From contig JAKACS010000217.1 of assembly GCA_021821235.1 (NCBI GenBank), positions 1-6,041 on the forward strand: a DNA stretch of 6,041 nt, given 5' to 3'. Within the stretch, counting starts at the first letter, position 1, and every line of letters begins with the position of its first letter. Positions 1-5,864 of this stretch are shown here, in pieces. The position numbers were made by a program, and so were the translations under genes. Under the pieces are notes generated by a model that did not search any database, was not told where the DNA came from, and was given only the letters and a program-made list of their open reading frames with translations. The stretch comes from Bacillota bacterium. GTDB taxonomy: Bacteria; Bacillota; Bacilli; Bacillales_B; DSM-18226.

Positions 1-627
1 TTTAACTAATTTTAATCCTGCTATTATAGCATGCCCAATCCGGAATTGAAACATACATGAAAGCTCTGTCTGGATGATCATTTGTTGAAATTGCGGCAGA
101 ATCTTGATTTCAGGCTTTTCTTTCAATCGAAAATAGCGGCTCAATAAGCCTACTATACTTCCTTTTACCGCCCACAATCCGCCTGTCAGCATCCCGGTAA
201 GTGCCGCATCTCCGACACCAACAACAGTTGACCAATGAAACTGTTGAATGGTTACTTTTCTTAAAAATTTTCGTAGTACCACATTAAATTGAATGACATG
301 CTCAAGGATTTCCCGGAAATTTTTTAAACTGGAAATAACTTTGCTCGGCGTTATTTGGTTTACTGTCATATCCGACTCCCTTTCTTGCGGCCCCATTTTC
401 GTTTTTCCCTTTAAAATGATACTTGGTGAATCATCATCCACTTTAATGAGCGGAATGTCTTTTTTGTACTTAAATAATCCAAACAAAGCCCGAAATTCAA
501 TTTCCAAATCATCATTATCGTTTCGATGATAATAGTTAATATAGATTGTTAACTTTGTAAAAAGGACGAGAATCAGCAAAAAGAAGCCAATGATCACAGC
601 AAAGACCAGCCATTTCAATCCGTTCAC
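1..627 (-). CDS. ytfI: YtfI-type DUF2953 membrane-anchored protein, C-terminus cut by window edge
   Basis: This open frame of 209 codons starts at a GTG (625-627) and is still open at position 1, so only the extreme C-terminus is missing. Residues 4-24 form one hydrophobic N-terminal segment (WLVFAVIIGFFLLILVLF), which predicts a membrane anchor. An acidic/basic linker follows, with 'NYYHRNDNDDLEIEFRALFG' at 31-50. The DUF2953 hallmarks are a glycine-rich 'GVGDAALTGMLTGGLWAVKG' at 137-156, 'PEIKILPQF' near 172-180 and 'FRIGHAIIAGLKLVK' at the end. In B. subtilis the homologue ytfI lies directly before the sporulation gene ytfJ, which would fall just left of this window. Molecular function is unknown. 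The start is uncertain: AAAGG lies only 2 bases before the GTG, while an in-frame TTG at 616-618 would have an 11-base spacing. The family assignment is by recognition of the conserved motifs. Confidence 0.85.
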   Translation of the reverse strand, partial: MNGLKWLVFAVIIGFFLLILVLFTKLTIYINYYHRNDNDDLEIEFRALFGLFKYKKDIPLIKVDDDSPSIILKGKTKMGPQERESDMTVNQITPSKVISSLKNFREILEHVIQFNVVLRKFLRKVTIQQFHWSTVVGVGDAALTGMLTGGLWAVKGSIVGLLSRYFRLKEKPEIKILPQFQQMIIQTELSCMFQFRIGHAIIAGLKLVK

Positions 628-654
628 AACCTTTCAGCCTACTAGTATCGGCAG

Positions 655-689
655 AATAAAAAAAAATAAACCTAAATGATTAGGTTTAT
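655..689 (-). terminator. Rho-independent terminator of rocD
   Basis: A perfect 10-bp inverted repeat (666-675 with 680-689, 4-base loop) lies 23 bases beyond the rocD stop. On the minus strand it is followed by a run of T (complement of 656-666). It should end rocD transcription, leaving only about 28 bases before the ytfI start. No convincing separate ytfI promoter is visible there. Confidence 0.85.
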
Positions 690-712: not shown

Positions 713-1912
713 TTAAGAGAGAACTTTTTTTATCCGCTCCATTGCCCAGTCGATTTCTTCTTTTTTGATAATTAGCGGTGGTGCAAAGCGAATCACCCGT
801 TCGTGTGTTTCTTTGCATAACAATCCTTCATCTTTTAACCGTTCACAATATGGTCTAGCTGATTCGGTTAATTCTACGCCAATAAATAAACCTTTTCCTC
901 TTATTTCTTTAATAATCGGATTATCAATCGTCTTTAGCTGTTCAAGAAAATAGGTACCCAATTCCAGCGATCTTTCAACCAGTTTTTCATCTTCAACCAC
1001 TTCTATTGCCGCAATCGAAACGGCACAGGCAAGCGGATTGCCACCAAAGGTAGATCCATGGGAACCCGGGTTAAAAACACCAAGAATATCGGAGTTTGCT
1101 GTAATACACGAAATCGGCAATACACCGCCGCCCAGTGCTTTTCCTAAAATATATATATCTGGAATAACATTCTCCCAATCGCAGGCAAACATTTTCCCCG
1201 TACGAGCCAAACCGGATTGAATTTCATCGGCAACAAACAATACATTGTTTTCTTTGCATACTCCAAACGCCGCTTTTAAATAACCTTCAGGCGGAATCAC
1301 AATTCCCGCTTCGCCTTGGATCGGTTCAACGATAAAGGCCGCTGTGTTAGGTGTGATCGCAGCTTTTAATGCCTCAATATCACCGTATCGGACTAATTTC
1401 ATACCTGGTACCAATGGGCCAAAGCCGCGTTTGTACTCCACATCGGATGATAGTGACACGGCACCCATCGTCCGGCCATGGAAGTTGCCGATACAAGAAA
1501 TAATTTCCGCCTGGTTTTCAGGGACTCCTTTTACATCATAGCTCCAGCGGCGTACAGCTTTTATAGCCGTTTCAACGGCTTCTGCCCCGGTATTCATTGG
1601 GAGCACCATATTTTTGTTTGTTAATTTGCAAATCTTTTCATACCAGTTCCCAAGCTTATCATTGTGAAACGCACGTGATGTTAGTGTCACCTTATCAGCC
1701 TGATCCTTTAAAGCCTGTATGATTTTTGGATGACGATGTCCTTGATTCAATGCCGAATAGGAGCTAAGCATATCCATATATCGGCTTCCTTCTGGATCTT
1801 CAACCCATACCCCCTCTGCTTTTGAAATCACGATTGGCAGCGGATGATAATTATGTGCGCCAAAATGATCCGTTTTTTCAATGATTTCTTTTGAAAAATT
1901 TTTTGTTTTCAT
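713..1912 (-). CDS. rocD: Ornithine aminotransferase (ornithine--oxo-acid transaminase)
   Basis: The 399-residue product matches the usual size of Bacillus RocD (about 400). It is a cytosolic PLP-dependent class-III aminotransferase that converts L-ornithine plus 2-oxoglutarate to glutamate-5-semialdehyde plus glutamate in arginine/ornithine catabolism. Visible motifs are '[20 protein letters not shown]' at 21-40, the PLP-phosphate region '[12 protein letters not shown]' at 107-118, 'GNFHGRT' at 142-148, 'EPIQGEAG' at 196-203, the cofactor-ring aspartate in 'VADEIQSG' (D229), the Schiff-base lysine in 'LGKALGGG' (K258) and '[11 protein letters not shown]' at 285-295. The ATG at 1910-1912 is chosen because AAAGGGGG (1923-1930) sits 10 bases before it; an upstream in-frame start would give a tail unlike the family. 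It stands alone, not in a rocDEF-type operon. Upstream lies the sppA/yteJ scar, with no -24/-12 (SigL) promoter visible, so its expression may differ from the RocR/SigL-controlled B. subtilis gene. All catalytic residues are present, so it looks functional. Confidence 0.96.
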
Positions 1913-1941: not shown

Positions 1942-1978
1942 AAAAGCAGGGGCGTTTCCTAGCGCCCAATCTGCCTTT
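1942..1978 (-). terminator. Weak terminator-like hairpin, probably the old yteJ terminator, now in the rocD leader
   Basis: On the minus strand an 8-bp outer stem including one G-U pair (1971-1978 with 1942-1949) and a GGGCG/CGCCC inner stem (1963-1967 with 1950-1954) are separated by a 3-base bulge and close on an 8-base loop. The downstream T run is only four bases, then C. It begins 15 bases after the yteJ-remnant stop, the normal place for that gene's terminator. It ends 11 bases before the rocD ribosome binding site, so transcripts entering rocD from upstream must pass it. Confidence 0.45.
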
Positions 1979-1993: not shown

Positions 1994-2113
1994 TTATTCG
2001 CAATGAACGACGGTCGTCTCTGCAAATAGGTCATGCAGTCCTTGCTTTTTCGGCAGAAAAGCTGAAATGAGGTAACCAACAATGATTGTCGAGGAAATAA
2101 ATCGGCTGGTGTC
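1994..2113 (-). pseudogene. yteJ: Remnant of yteJ/sppI: C-terminal end of an RDD-family membrane protein
   Basis: Reading this strand in the frame ending at TAA 1994-1996 gives a hydrophobic segment followed by a typical RDD-family C-terminus. The stretch 'RFISSTIIVGYLISAF' (codons from 2104 down) looks like a last membrane helix. It is followed by 'KKQGLHDLFAETTVV', which matches the family pattern K-K/R-Q-G/A-L-H-D-x-x-A-x-T-x-V-V. Intact YteJ is about 160 residues, so about three quarters is missing, including any start codon or ribosome binding site. In B. subtilis yteJ (SppI) follows sppA and its product binds and inhibits SppA. Here the piece directly abuts the first codons of sppA, which is what one deletion across both genes would leave. 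Assignment is by motif and synteny; no alignment was run. Confidence 0.75.
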
Positions 2114-2165
2114 GGCTTTTCCTTCCAGCAGCAATACCCAAAGCTGCCCATCGCTTTCCCGTCAA
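2031..2165 (-). other. 44-codon chimeric reading frame left by the sppA/yteJ deletion
   Basis: Translation from the sppA TTG start would run 14 codons of SppA, then 30 codons of out-of-frame yteJ sequence, to TGA at 2031-2033. The ribosome binding site is strong, so a peptide may still be made. The tail (containing 'HCWLPHF' and 'SAEKARTA') resembles no protein I know and the hydrophobic helix of SppA is interrupted. A functional product is unlikely; I list it only because its translation signals are intact. Confidence 0.3.
2124..2165 (-). pseudogene. sppA: Remnant of sppA: start and first ~14 codons of signal peptide peptidase
   Basis: A TTG start (2163-2165) with an ideal AAAAAGGGGG ribosome binding site 8 bases upstream (2174-2183) begins a peptide reading MTGKRWAALGIAAG. 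This matches the start of Bacillus SppA, a membrane-bound serine/lysine protease that degrades leftover signal peptides (family pattern M-N-x-K-R-W-x-A-L-x-I-A). After about 14 codons the similarity stops and the yteJ end appears in a different frame; the offset of 13 bases between codon positions 2126 and 2113 is not a multiple of three. Intact SppA has about 335 residues. The whole catalytic domain, with its Ser and Lys residues, is absent. Gene order (divergent from nadK2) supports the identity. The call rests on a short match plus synteny. Confidence 0.72.
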
Positions 2166-2197
2166 TACGCATGCCCCCTTTTTCAAATGTCTCTTTC

Positions 2198-2228
2198 TTT
2201 ATACGGATACTGTTTCATTTCGTTTCAA
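2198..2228 (-). promoter_or_regulatory. Candidate SigA promoter of the former sppA-yteJ operon, now upstream of rocD
   Basis: On the minus strand TTGAAA (2223-2228) and TATAAA (2198-2203) are separated by 19 bases, longer than the optimal 17. They lie 33 bases before the sppA start codon. No better candidate exists between here and rocD, so this may now supply rocD transcripts. Confidence 0.4.
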
Positions 2229-3175: not shown

Positions 3176-4093
3176 TTACTGCTTTTCATATTTCATTTTA
3201 TATGTTGTAAACAGTTTTGTTTTTGAAATGGAGTAGACCGATAATGCAGACCAAATAAACAAAAAGGCCAAAAGCTGCAGTTTTGAAAAGTGCTCACCGT
3301 AAATAAAAACTCCAAGGATCAGCGTAATCGTTGGTGCAATATATTGCAGCAGCCCTAGAAGGGACAGCGGAATTTTTTGCGCTCCTTTTGCAAAATAAAG
3401 AAGCGGAACCGCGGTAGCCACCCCGGCACCCACTAAAAGTGCGTCCGTTCCTACCCCAGCCGTTAAAAACGCATTTGTTCCATTACCGAGCAAGTATAAC
3501 AAATAAACGAATGCAAACGGAGTCATCACCAAGGTTTCCAGCGTAAGGCCTACAGATGATTCAACATTAATCAGTTTTTTCGCTAAACCGTATAATCCAA
3601 AAGAAAGTGCCAGCGTTATGGCGATCGAGGGAAAATATCCATAGGAAAGTGTGATGATCAATACACCGACAGCCGCCAAAAAGAATGAGATATATTGGGC
3701 AATCGTCAATCGCTCTTTTAAAACAATTACCCCGAGAAGGAAACTAACGAGCGGGTTAATGTAATAACCGAGACTCGCTTCAATCATTTTCCCATTGTTC
3801 ACCGCCCAAATATAGGTAAACCAATTAATCGTAATTAAAAAAGAGGCAATAGCAAGAGCATATAGCTGCTTTTGATTGTGTGCAAATCCCTTAAATGTTC
3901 GGATAAACAATTCCCATTTACCTGAAATCAATAGAATCACGATCATAAACATGAACGACCAGAATATCCGGTTGGCCAAAATTTCTTTTGCCGATACATT
4001 CTCAAGAAATTTCCAATAAATTGGCAGCAATCCCCAAAGCAAATAAGATAAGCCGGCATGGATCGCACCTTGTTTCACTTCATTTCTTTTCAT
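3176..4093 (-). CDS. rarD: RarD-family EamA-type transporter
   Basis: This 305-residue polytopic membrane protein belongs to the RarD branch of the drug/metabolite transporter superfamily. About ten hydrophobic segments can be drawn, near residues 11-28, 40-57, 77-96, 103-124, 130-149, 153-172, 184-202, 214-234, 243-264 and 270-289, forming the two EamA repeats. Typical RarD stretches are 'GLSYLLWGLLPIYWKFL' at 14-30, 'NRIFWSFMFM' at 41-50, 'ASLGYYINPLVSFLLG' at 106-121, 'FGLYGLAKK' at 165-173 and 'PLSLLGLLQYIAPT' at 242-255. The C-terminus is basic. The substrate is unknown; the historical name 'chloramphenicol-sensitive protein' does not establish drug export. The ATG at 4091-4093 has GGGG 7 bases upstream. 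It is monocistronic, with its own promoter and a terminator shared with nadK2. The neighbours do not indicate a substrate. Confidence 0.92.
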   Translation of the reverse strand: MKRNEVKQGAIHAGLSYLLWGLLPIYWKFLENVSAKEILANRIFWSFMFMIVILLISGKWELFIRTFKGFAHNQKQLYALAIASFLITINWFTYIWAVNNGKMIEASLGYYINPLVSFLLGVIVLKERLTIAQYISFFLAAVGVLIITLSYGYFPSIAITLALSFGLYGLAKKLINVESSVGLTLETLVMTPFAFVYLLYLLGNGTNAFLTAGVGTDALLVGAGVATAVPLLYFAKGAQKIPLSLLGLLQYIAPTITLILGVFIYGEHFSKLQLLAFLFIWSALSVYSISKTKLFTTYKMKYEKQ

Positions 4094-4289: not shown

Positions 4290-5864
4290 CTATGCTTTAA
4301 ACTGCTGTGCTTCTTTTTGGCGAAGTTCAATTCTGCGGATCTTTCCGGATGTTGTTTTTGGAAGTTCTTTTAAAAATTCAATTTTCCTTGGATATTTATA
4401 CGGAGCTGTCAGCGCTTTCACATGTTCCTGGAGAGTGCTGATTAATTTCGGGTCAGCTGCATCAATGTCATCTTTTAAAACAACAAAAGCCTTGACAAGA
4501 TTTCCGCGGATTTCATCTGGGCTGGCAACAACCGCGCATTCTTTCACGAATGGATGCTTCACAAGGGCATCTTCCACTTCAAACGGCCCAATCGTGTAGC
4601 CTGAGCTGATAATAATATCATCTCCGCGTCCTTCAAACCAGAAATATCCATCCTCATCTTTCTTGGCTTTATCACCGGTTATATAATACTCCCCGCGGAA
4701 CTGCATGGCTGTTCTTTCTGGATCTTTATAGTAATTTTTAAATAGTGCTGGTGACTCAACATGCACTGCAATATCTCCAACCTCACCAATTGCACACAAT
4801 GCGCCTTCCTCATTTATAATTTCTACTCGATTCCCAGGAGTCGGTTTTCCCATTGAACCTGGTTTCAACTCCATTTCTTTCGTAACACCGACAAGGAGTG
4901 TGTTTTCCGTCTGCCCATATCCGTCACGAACGTCTATATTAAAATATTTCCGAAATGTATCAATGACTTCGCGGTTGAGCGGCTCACCTGCCGATATGGC
5001 GCTATGCAAATTTGGCAGCTTGTACTCTTGTAAACGATCAACTTTTGCCATTAAACGGTATTCCGTTGGTGTGCAGCATAACACATTCACATTATACTTT
5101 TCAAGGTAATGCAAGTATTTTTCTGGTTCAAATTTCCCATGATAGACAAGGCCTGTTGCCCCTGAGCCTAACACCGATAAAAATGGGCTCCAAATCCATT
5201 TTTGCCAGCCAGGCCCTGCTGTCGCCCATACGGTATCACCATCCTGGATGCACAGCCAGTTTTTCGCAGCTGTTTTCAGATGCGCAAAAGCCCAGCCATG
5301 TGTGTGGACAACACCTTTTGGATTTCCAGTTGTCCCAGAGGTATAGGATAAGAAGGCCATGTCATCCCGAAGTGTTTCCGCAGCGGCCAGCTCTTCTGAG
5401 GCTTTCAACCGCTCTTCACCAATATCAAGCCAACCTGCGCTGCCGCCTAGCGAAAATTTAACAATCGGTTTGGTAATATTTTTAAATTGAGGTGTGTATT
5501 CGTAATAGCTGACAACTCCTTTCACATCCCCGTGGGCAATCCGATAGTGGAGATCCTTTTCCCGTAGCATTTCAGAACTTGGAATTACAATAATCCCGAG
5601 CTTTAGCGCTGCCAAATAAACAGCATAGGCCTCGATCAGCCTCGGGATCATGACGAGAACAACATCTCCCTTTCCAAGCCCTTGGCTTTTAAAAATATTG
5701 CCAATCTGATTCACCTGCTTGATCAACTCGTTGTACGTTATTTGTCTTTTTTGCCCTGCTTCATTCTCCCATTTTAATGCAATCCGTCCCGGCTCGGCTG
5801 CAAACCGTTCTACTTCAGAAACCAAATTGTAGTTTTCAGGTGCAATAAAATCTTCTCTCTTCAT
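4290..5864 (-). CDS. ytcI: Acyl-CoA synthetase (AMP-forming), YtcI / medium-chain-like family
   Basis: The 524-residue cytosolic enzyme of the ANL superfamily should activate a carboxylic acid with ATP to an acyl-adenylate, then transfer it to CoA. The core motifs are all present: P-loop 'YTSGTTGNPKG' at 174-184, 'DGYGQTE' at 314-320, 'TGD' at 396-398, the hinge region 'GRGDDIIISSGYTIGPFEVE' at 412-431, and the C-terminal catalytic lysine in 'PKTTSGKIRR' (K508). That lysine sits in the context that protein acetyltransferases modify in acetyl-CoA synthetase. The tryptophan-rich 'GPGWQKWIWSPFL' near 217-229 resembles acetyl/medium-chain acyl synthetases, but chain length cannot be read from sequence. 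The ATG at 5862-5864 is chosen because GAGGGGG lies 6 bases upstream (5871-5877). An in-frame TTG at 5904-5906 would place that site inside the gene and overlaps the -10 element. It is monocistronic, next to sspA as in B. subtilis. Confidence 0.93.
   Translation of the reverse strand: MKREDFIAPENYNLVSEVERFAAEPGRIALKWENEAGQKRQITYNELIKQVNQIGNIFKSQGLGKGDVVLVMIPRLIEAYAVYLAALKLGIIVIPSSEMLREKDLHYRIAHGDVKGVVSYYEYTPQFKNITKPIVKFSLGGSAGWLDIGEERLKASEELAAAETLRDDMAFLSYTSGTTGNPKGVVHTHGWAFAHLKTAAKNWLCIQDGDTVWATAGPGWQKWIWSPFLSVLGSGATGLVYHGKFEPEKYLHYLEKYNVNVLCCTPTEYRLMAKVDRLQEYKLPNLHSAISAGEPLNREVIDTFRKYFNIDVRDGYGQTENTLLVGVTKEMELKPGSMGKPTPGNRVEIINEEGALCAIGEVGDIAVHVESPALFKNYYKDPERTAMQFRGEYYITGDKAKKDEDGYFWFEGRGDDIIISSGYTIGPFEVEDALVKHPFVKECAVVASPDEIRGNLVKAFVVLKDDIDAADPKLISTLQEHVKALTAPYKYPRKIEFLKELPKTTSGKIRRIELRQKEAQQFKA

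Follow-up and report, generated by a model that had tools for sequence, protein, structure and literature searches.

The window, as we call the whole 6,041-base stretch of DNA analysed here, carries two partial gene ends between rocD and nadK. Among the matches listed for its RarD protein, one 6,041-base contig was the only source and the next RarD stood at 83%; we infer that the window is one entire short contig, probably of metagenomic origin. An Rfam search returned no family at E ≤1. The features are as follows, with ytfI and ppnKB being the names that we take to apply to the neighbour genes.

1..627, minus strand: ytfI (DUF2953; Pfam), left neighbour, cut by the window's left end
657..688, minus strand: terminator hairpin and T tract
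713..1912, minus strand: rocD, ornithine aminotransferase (Pfam Aminotran_3, E 2.9e-137)
1950..1967, minus strand: G+C-rich hairpin between the joined gene ends and rocD, possible weak terminator
1994..2107, minus strand: yteJ/sppI remnant, last 37 codons and stop
2108..2123, minus strand: junction, 16 bases
2124..2165, minus strand: sppA remnant, codons 1-14 with TTG start, LTGKRWAALGIAAG
2174..2182, minus strand: Shine-Dalgarno sequence AAAAGGGGG, read from the sequence
2202..2227, minus strand: predicted sigma-W type promoter, TGAAAC-N16-CGTA(T), 36 bases 5' of the start codon
2321..3121, plus strand: nadK/ppnKB (Pfam), divergent right neighbour
3176..4093, minus strand: rarD (Pfam)
4290..5864, minus strand: AMP-binding acyl-CoA synthetase-like gene (Pfam)

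Both outer termini of an sppA-yteJ pair are present, in order and on the same strand. The SppA frame opens with the TTG at 2165-2163, and its first 14 residues, LTGKRWAALGIAAG, run to 2124. By direct translation, the end of YteJ/SppI, SRFISSTIIVGYLISAFLPKKQGLHDLFAETTVVHCE followed by a stop, lies at 2107-1994 in a frame other than that of SppA. Reading through the junction in the SppA frame yields a chimera of 44 residues, inside which the only listed start of the YteJ part, a TTG at 2134, is located. In many loci, blastn aligned approx. 2003-2106 with the 3' end of yteJ and approx. 2128-2159 with the 5' end of sppA, and in one genome (G155) both pieces were matched on a single contig, 1.34 kb apart. 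The alignment scores of 155 for YteJ and 59 for SppA were reached by none of 200 letter shuffles of the region. A tblastn comparison of the window with the YteJ protein of locus L004 gave 74% over residues 152-186. The Pfam RDD model scored 16.1 bits on the YteJ piece (cut-off 24.1; E 0.014) and was matched at positions 110-136 of 137 only; a complete RDD membrane domain is absent. Likewise, the S49 catalytic domain is absent from the SppA-frame reading frame, which retains 14 codons and matches no Pfam family.

A first-pass annotation of this DNA had described a strong ribosome binding site and a TTG opening an SppA-like N-terminus, in agreement with the direct reading and the blastn alignments. 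It had placed an RDD-type C-terminus with a stop in another frame about 11 bases further on; frame and stop hold, while the gap measures 16 bases. These junction bases (2123-2108) resemble neither terminus as known from relatives and have no match of at least 10 bases elsewhere in the window, where only 9-base matches were found.

The ancestral locus and its promoter

A nadK search of genome contigs provided 80 loci, the best at 81% identity. One locus (L067) was dropped at a contig end and another (L039) is cut before yteJ, leaving 79 loci usable for sppA and 78 for yteJ. The gene sppA adjoins nadK in 75 of the 79, and yteJ is present in 74 of the 78. Intact sppA-yteJ thus occupies in relatives the place of the two remnants, and the adjacency assumed by the first-pass annotation is the usual content of this locus. 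When the window is aligned to the sppA-yteJ loci of relatives, as had been proposed, both pieces fall on the expected gene ends. From SppA codon 14 to the matching YteJ codon, the 74 intact loci span 1,293-1,690 bases (median 1,411) and 21 near-clade loci 1,293-1,428 bases, compared with 19 bases in the window. The alignments to 5' sppA and 3' yteJ together with this ancestral spacing identify both halves. The spacing in intact loci gives a loss of approx. 1.4 kb, within the 1.3-1.5 kb predicted earlier for one deletion of both genes sparing the promoter and the first and last codons. The start codon of sppA is TTG in the window as against 73 ATG and 2 GTG codons in the intact loci.

Two further features of the locus collection are worth recording. 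In Bacillus renqingensis REN2 (L051:4596-9611), the yteJ-sppA-nadK block is flanked by the acs-like gene and ytfI in exchanged positions and inverted orientation. Four records (L013, L057, L008 and L012) are titled Pseudomonas, Chryseobacterium, Paenibacillus and Sporosarcina globispora, respectively, and group with Cytobacillus/Mesobacillus rows in the tree; they are probably mislabelled or contaminated.

Upstream of the SppA start, a perfect TGAAAC-N16-CGTA lies at 2227-2202; the window has no other match, and shuffles predict 0.02. By the consensus printed in PMC2375139 (TGAAAC-N16/17-CGTA, here required 5' of a start), it is a predicted sigma-W promoter. PMC3498285 and PMC7568657 place sppA-yteJ among the sigma-W-regulated operons. 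The strict motif occurs in 25 of the 75 intact loci and in none of the 16 loci that have lost both genes (loss loci, see below). Near versions in several intact loci, e.g. L018 and L035, are missed by the strict pattern, so that 25 of 75 is a lower bound. In the Cytobacillus-type loci L004, L005, L007 to L013, L016, L020 and L031 the strict motif lies 100-108 bases 5' of the sppA start, and in most other motif-bearing loci the distance is 30-39 bases. On the far side of the locus, the region upstream of ytfI (window 600-660) contains a conserved stretch, CTACTAGTATCG..., shared by 49 of the 73 intact loci and 11 of the 16 loss loci, which may represent the ribosome site and promoter of ytfI.

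Joint absence of sppA and yteJ in related genomes

Both genes are missing in four of the 80 loci (L001, L002, L023 and L041). A survey of 193 genomes, all from the family of L001, detected an S49 domain at E 0.001 in 176 and none in 17, and YteJ at E 1e-15 in 175. In 16 of the 17 genomes devoid of S49, ytfI lies beside nadK with neither sppA nor yteJ in between, and the same 16 are devoid of YteJ. The seventeenth, G107, gave no match to nadK at E 1e-100, and its YteJ piece stops 3 bases short of a contig end. In G084 the piece also lies at a contig end, and in G015 SppA begins at contig base 1. As these three discordant cases are contig breaks, there is no clear case of one gene alone among the 193 genomes. 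For the same reason, G107 was rejected as a second example of joined gene ends. In five of the loss genomes (G008, G009, G112, G156 and G158) one contig represents nearly the whole genome, which makes the absence firm there. Elsewhere in the genomes with a loss at this locus no S49 domain was found at E 0.001. A looser search of four of them gave sub-cut-off matches only, the best with E 0.0047 and 17.9 bits as compared to 24.9.

No remnant of sppA or yteJ was recognised in the 16 loss loci in 48 tests against letter shuffles. The low tails were 0.025 for YteJ (L041, L114) and 0.02 to 0.05 for the SppA start (L109, L111, L108, L023, L001). The SppA-like alignments in L023, L108, L109, L111, L001 and L114 were discarded, being gapless hydrophobic runs at the ytfI end and lacking the KRWAALG core; on the basis of these sequences they are taken for chance or the start of ytfI. 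Loss of the sigma factor as a cause of sppA loss is ruled out, as the sigW model (TIGR02948), matched in 192 of the 193 genomes at E 1e-40 and above its cut-off in 190, was matched in all 17 genomes devoid of S49. The literature on sppA, yteJ/SppI and signal peptide peptidase in Bacillus, Bacillaceae and Neobacillus contained, in the portions available, no prior report of sppA-yteJ loss.

The distribution of losses was followed on trees of four concatenated proteins. A quick tree comprised 93 rows, made up of the window, the 80 loci and another 12 loss loci, and a careful tree 50 rows (43 clade rows and 7 outgroups). All 16 loss genomes are in both trees and G107 in neither; most of the 193 genomes that keep the genes are unsampled. 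With 17 rows labelled as losses, including the window, six changes were counted (bootstrap range 6-7), of which at least four are forced by the starred branches. When the window's own loss was set aside, the other 16 gave six losses in 918 of 1000 bootstraps, five in 27, seven in 51 and eight in 4. In these trees all losses fall within one Neobacillus-like clade of 37 rows. The counts amount to about six separate joint losses besides that of the window. With the pair lost this often, and both genes gone each time, its loss is tolerated or favoured in this clade. The window itself groups with L041, L001 and L089 on a weakly supported branch (89/52).

Age and origin of the join

Over 35 residues, the YteJ remnant is 0.73 identical to intact YteJ at the amino acid and 0.68 at the nucleotide level (56 loci), and intact pairs of like distance have 0.73 (sd 0.07) and 0.68 (sd 0.05), respectively (1,566 pairs). 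It contains no stop or frameshift, and of its differences from L051, 5 fall on first, 2 on second and 23 on third codon positions. Against a consensus built from 23 intact clade loci, the remnant has an identity of 0.77, as compared with a mean of 0.84 and a lowest value of 0.63 for the contributing loci themselves; by this measure some decay is possible. When neutral decay was simulated, the share of draws that stayed as similar to the consensus as the window is was 22.5% with 0.1 changes per site, 1.1% with 0.2 and 0.000 with 0.3. Given little or no decay in the remnant, the deletion is a recent one, provided that the join is not an assembly error.

The termini, the ancestral spacing, the kept promoter and ribosome site and the near lack of decay are observed features of the window. 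Very probably they represent a young deletion scar of a sigma-W operon sppA-yteJ(sppI) with approx. 1.4 kb lost, in what we infer to be a single deletion event, real in the organism. The ancestral operon, divergent from nadK, would have lost approx. 1.4 kb in such a way that SppA codon 14 became joined to the last 37 YteJ codons via 16 extra bases and in differing frames. Neither protein would then be makeable from the locus, nearly all of SppA including its catalytic part being gone. Ordinary bacterial intragenic deletion scars join the ends of two genes out of frame and leave a few bases unmatched at the junction, and the scar itself is this ordinary kind of event. It differs from them in spanning a protease and its own inhibitor together.

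Several observations speak against a young deletion, among them the TTG start codon, unlike the ATG or GTG of intact loci, and the remnant's below-average identity to the clade consensus. No second assembly backs the join, and an assembly error would likewise leave the remnant undecayed. It is thus conceivable, if unlikely, that the organism has intact sppA-yteJ and that 1.4 kb was skipped when reads, possibly drawn from a mixed population, were assembled, as would fit one short contig with no second listed source. An artefact of this sort is at odds with the 16 junction bases, which fit neither terminus and, having no match of at least 10 bases, leave no repeat within the window itself on which to collapse. 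Nor does it sit well with the nearest placed relatives L041, L001 and L089, which also have neither gene, two of them on nearly genome-long contigs (G008, G009). The same three relatives count against a young scar in another way, since the loss might be older and common to all four, with the scar kept in the window and erased in the others; the careful tree does group them and counts one loss. We regard this as rather less probable still. The remnant shows little decay despite an end branch of 0.3 changes per residue leading to the window, the similarity is already rarely kept at 0.2 simulated changes per site, and none of the 16 loss loci has a strict sigma-W motif or a recognised remnant.

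Another alternative is that selection keeps the remnant, with the 44-residue chimera or the C-terminal SppI peptide being functional, e.g. in protease binding. The intact frame of the YteJ part, its mostly third-position differences and the retained promoter and ribosome site could be read in this sense, as could the need for the SppI C-terminus in SppA control described in PMC7568657. This appears the most improbable of the readings considered, because the YteJ part is read in a different frame from SppA and has its only listed start inside the chimera, the partner SppA is gone, and a recent deletion accounts for the same pattern. A protein-database search for other truncated YteJ reading frames gave no candidate with three shared words, from which nothing follows either way. 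A further objection to the deletion comes from B. subtilis, where wild type outcompetes an sppA sppI double mutant after 48 h according to PMC7568657, which speaks against easy loss.

Among its closest counterparts, the window is like the B. subtilis sppA-yteJ (sppI) operon (PMC7568657, PMC3498285) in gene order, sigma-W promoter type and recognisable termini; in contrast, approx. 1.4 kb and both products are gone, and the window's rocD precedes the operon terminator. With the 16 clean losses of the Neobacillus-like clade, where sigW is kept, it has in common that both genes are gone from the same place. Those loci have neither a recognised remnant nor a strict sigma-W motif, whereas the window keeps promoter, start and termini.

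The place of rocD and the role of the SppA-SppI pair

In none of the 80 loci, 77 of them reaching ytfI, is rocD present in the studied stretch, and it was found in 19 of 20 genomes searched. The closest RocD proteins among the matches listed were at 92% (an ENA contig) and 90% (Neobacillus sp. SM06). From the start of ytfI, homology to relatives extends as far as 672-674 in 46 of the 73 intact loci and 9 of the 16 loss loci; in no locus does it pass 674. The T tract and right arm of the terminator at 657..688 match an element located between yteJ and ytfI in relatives. As the homology ends in the right arm of this terminator, rocD occupies the interval from the yteJ stop to the former operon terminator. 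Being 5' of that terminator, it may be read from the surviving promoter. A scan of the minus strand from 1912 to 2200 revealed no sigma-70-like site. The leader of rocD is unlike that of 20 relatives' rocD loci beyond approx. 20 bases 5' of the gene. The hairpin at 1967-1950 may halt transcription ahead of rocD; an 84-base leader folds at -22.3 kcal/mol (z -1.7), and the folding of a longer leader is ordinary (z -0.24). A possible but doubtful history is that rocD entered the sigma-W operon and that the sppA-sppI deletion placed it within approx. 290 bases of the promoter.

In PMC7568657, SppA is described as widely conserved and as aiding stationary-phase survival and lantibiotic resistance in B. 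subtilis, with a contribution against nisin, subtilin and LP9. Double loss accordingly predicts that one envelope defence is lost. SppI binds and inhibits SppA and requires its C-terminus, in line with the inhibition stated in the first-pass annotation. The further argument made there, that keeping one gene would unbalance the pair, is weak at native expression, as B. subtilis sppI single mutants look normal. According to the same paper, single and double deletions of sppA and sppI did not differ significantly in morphology. Deletion of sppI alone left growth rate and 48-h survival unaffected and had a "less severe", not nil, effect on final optical density; harm was seen on SppA overexpression without SppI. 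Because the two genes adjoin in one operon, their joint loss needs no further explanation. Overall, the first-pass reading is correct in the main, with a rationale that is partly mistaken.

Joint presence or absence with no clear exception in 193 genomes fits a protease-inhibitor pairing; operon linkage alone would produce it too. If rocD did capture the promoter, an envelope-stress protease operon would have become an envelope-stress ornithine aminotransferase operon with the scar as its leader, and the lineage would have recycled a promoter in a clade that repeatedly discards SppA-SppI. Some seven separate losses of both genes within a single clade, of which one seems to have been captured shortly after the event, suggest that the pair is dispensable there. 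The repeated losses offer a natural comparison for the role of SppA-SppI.
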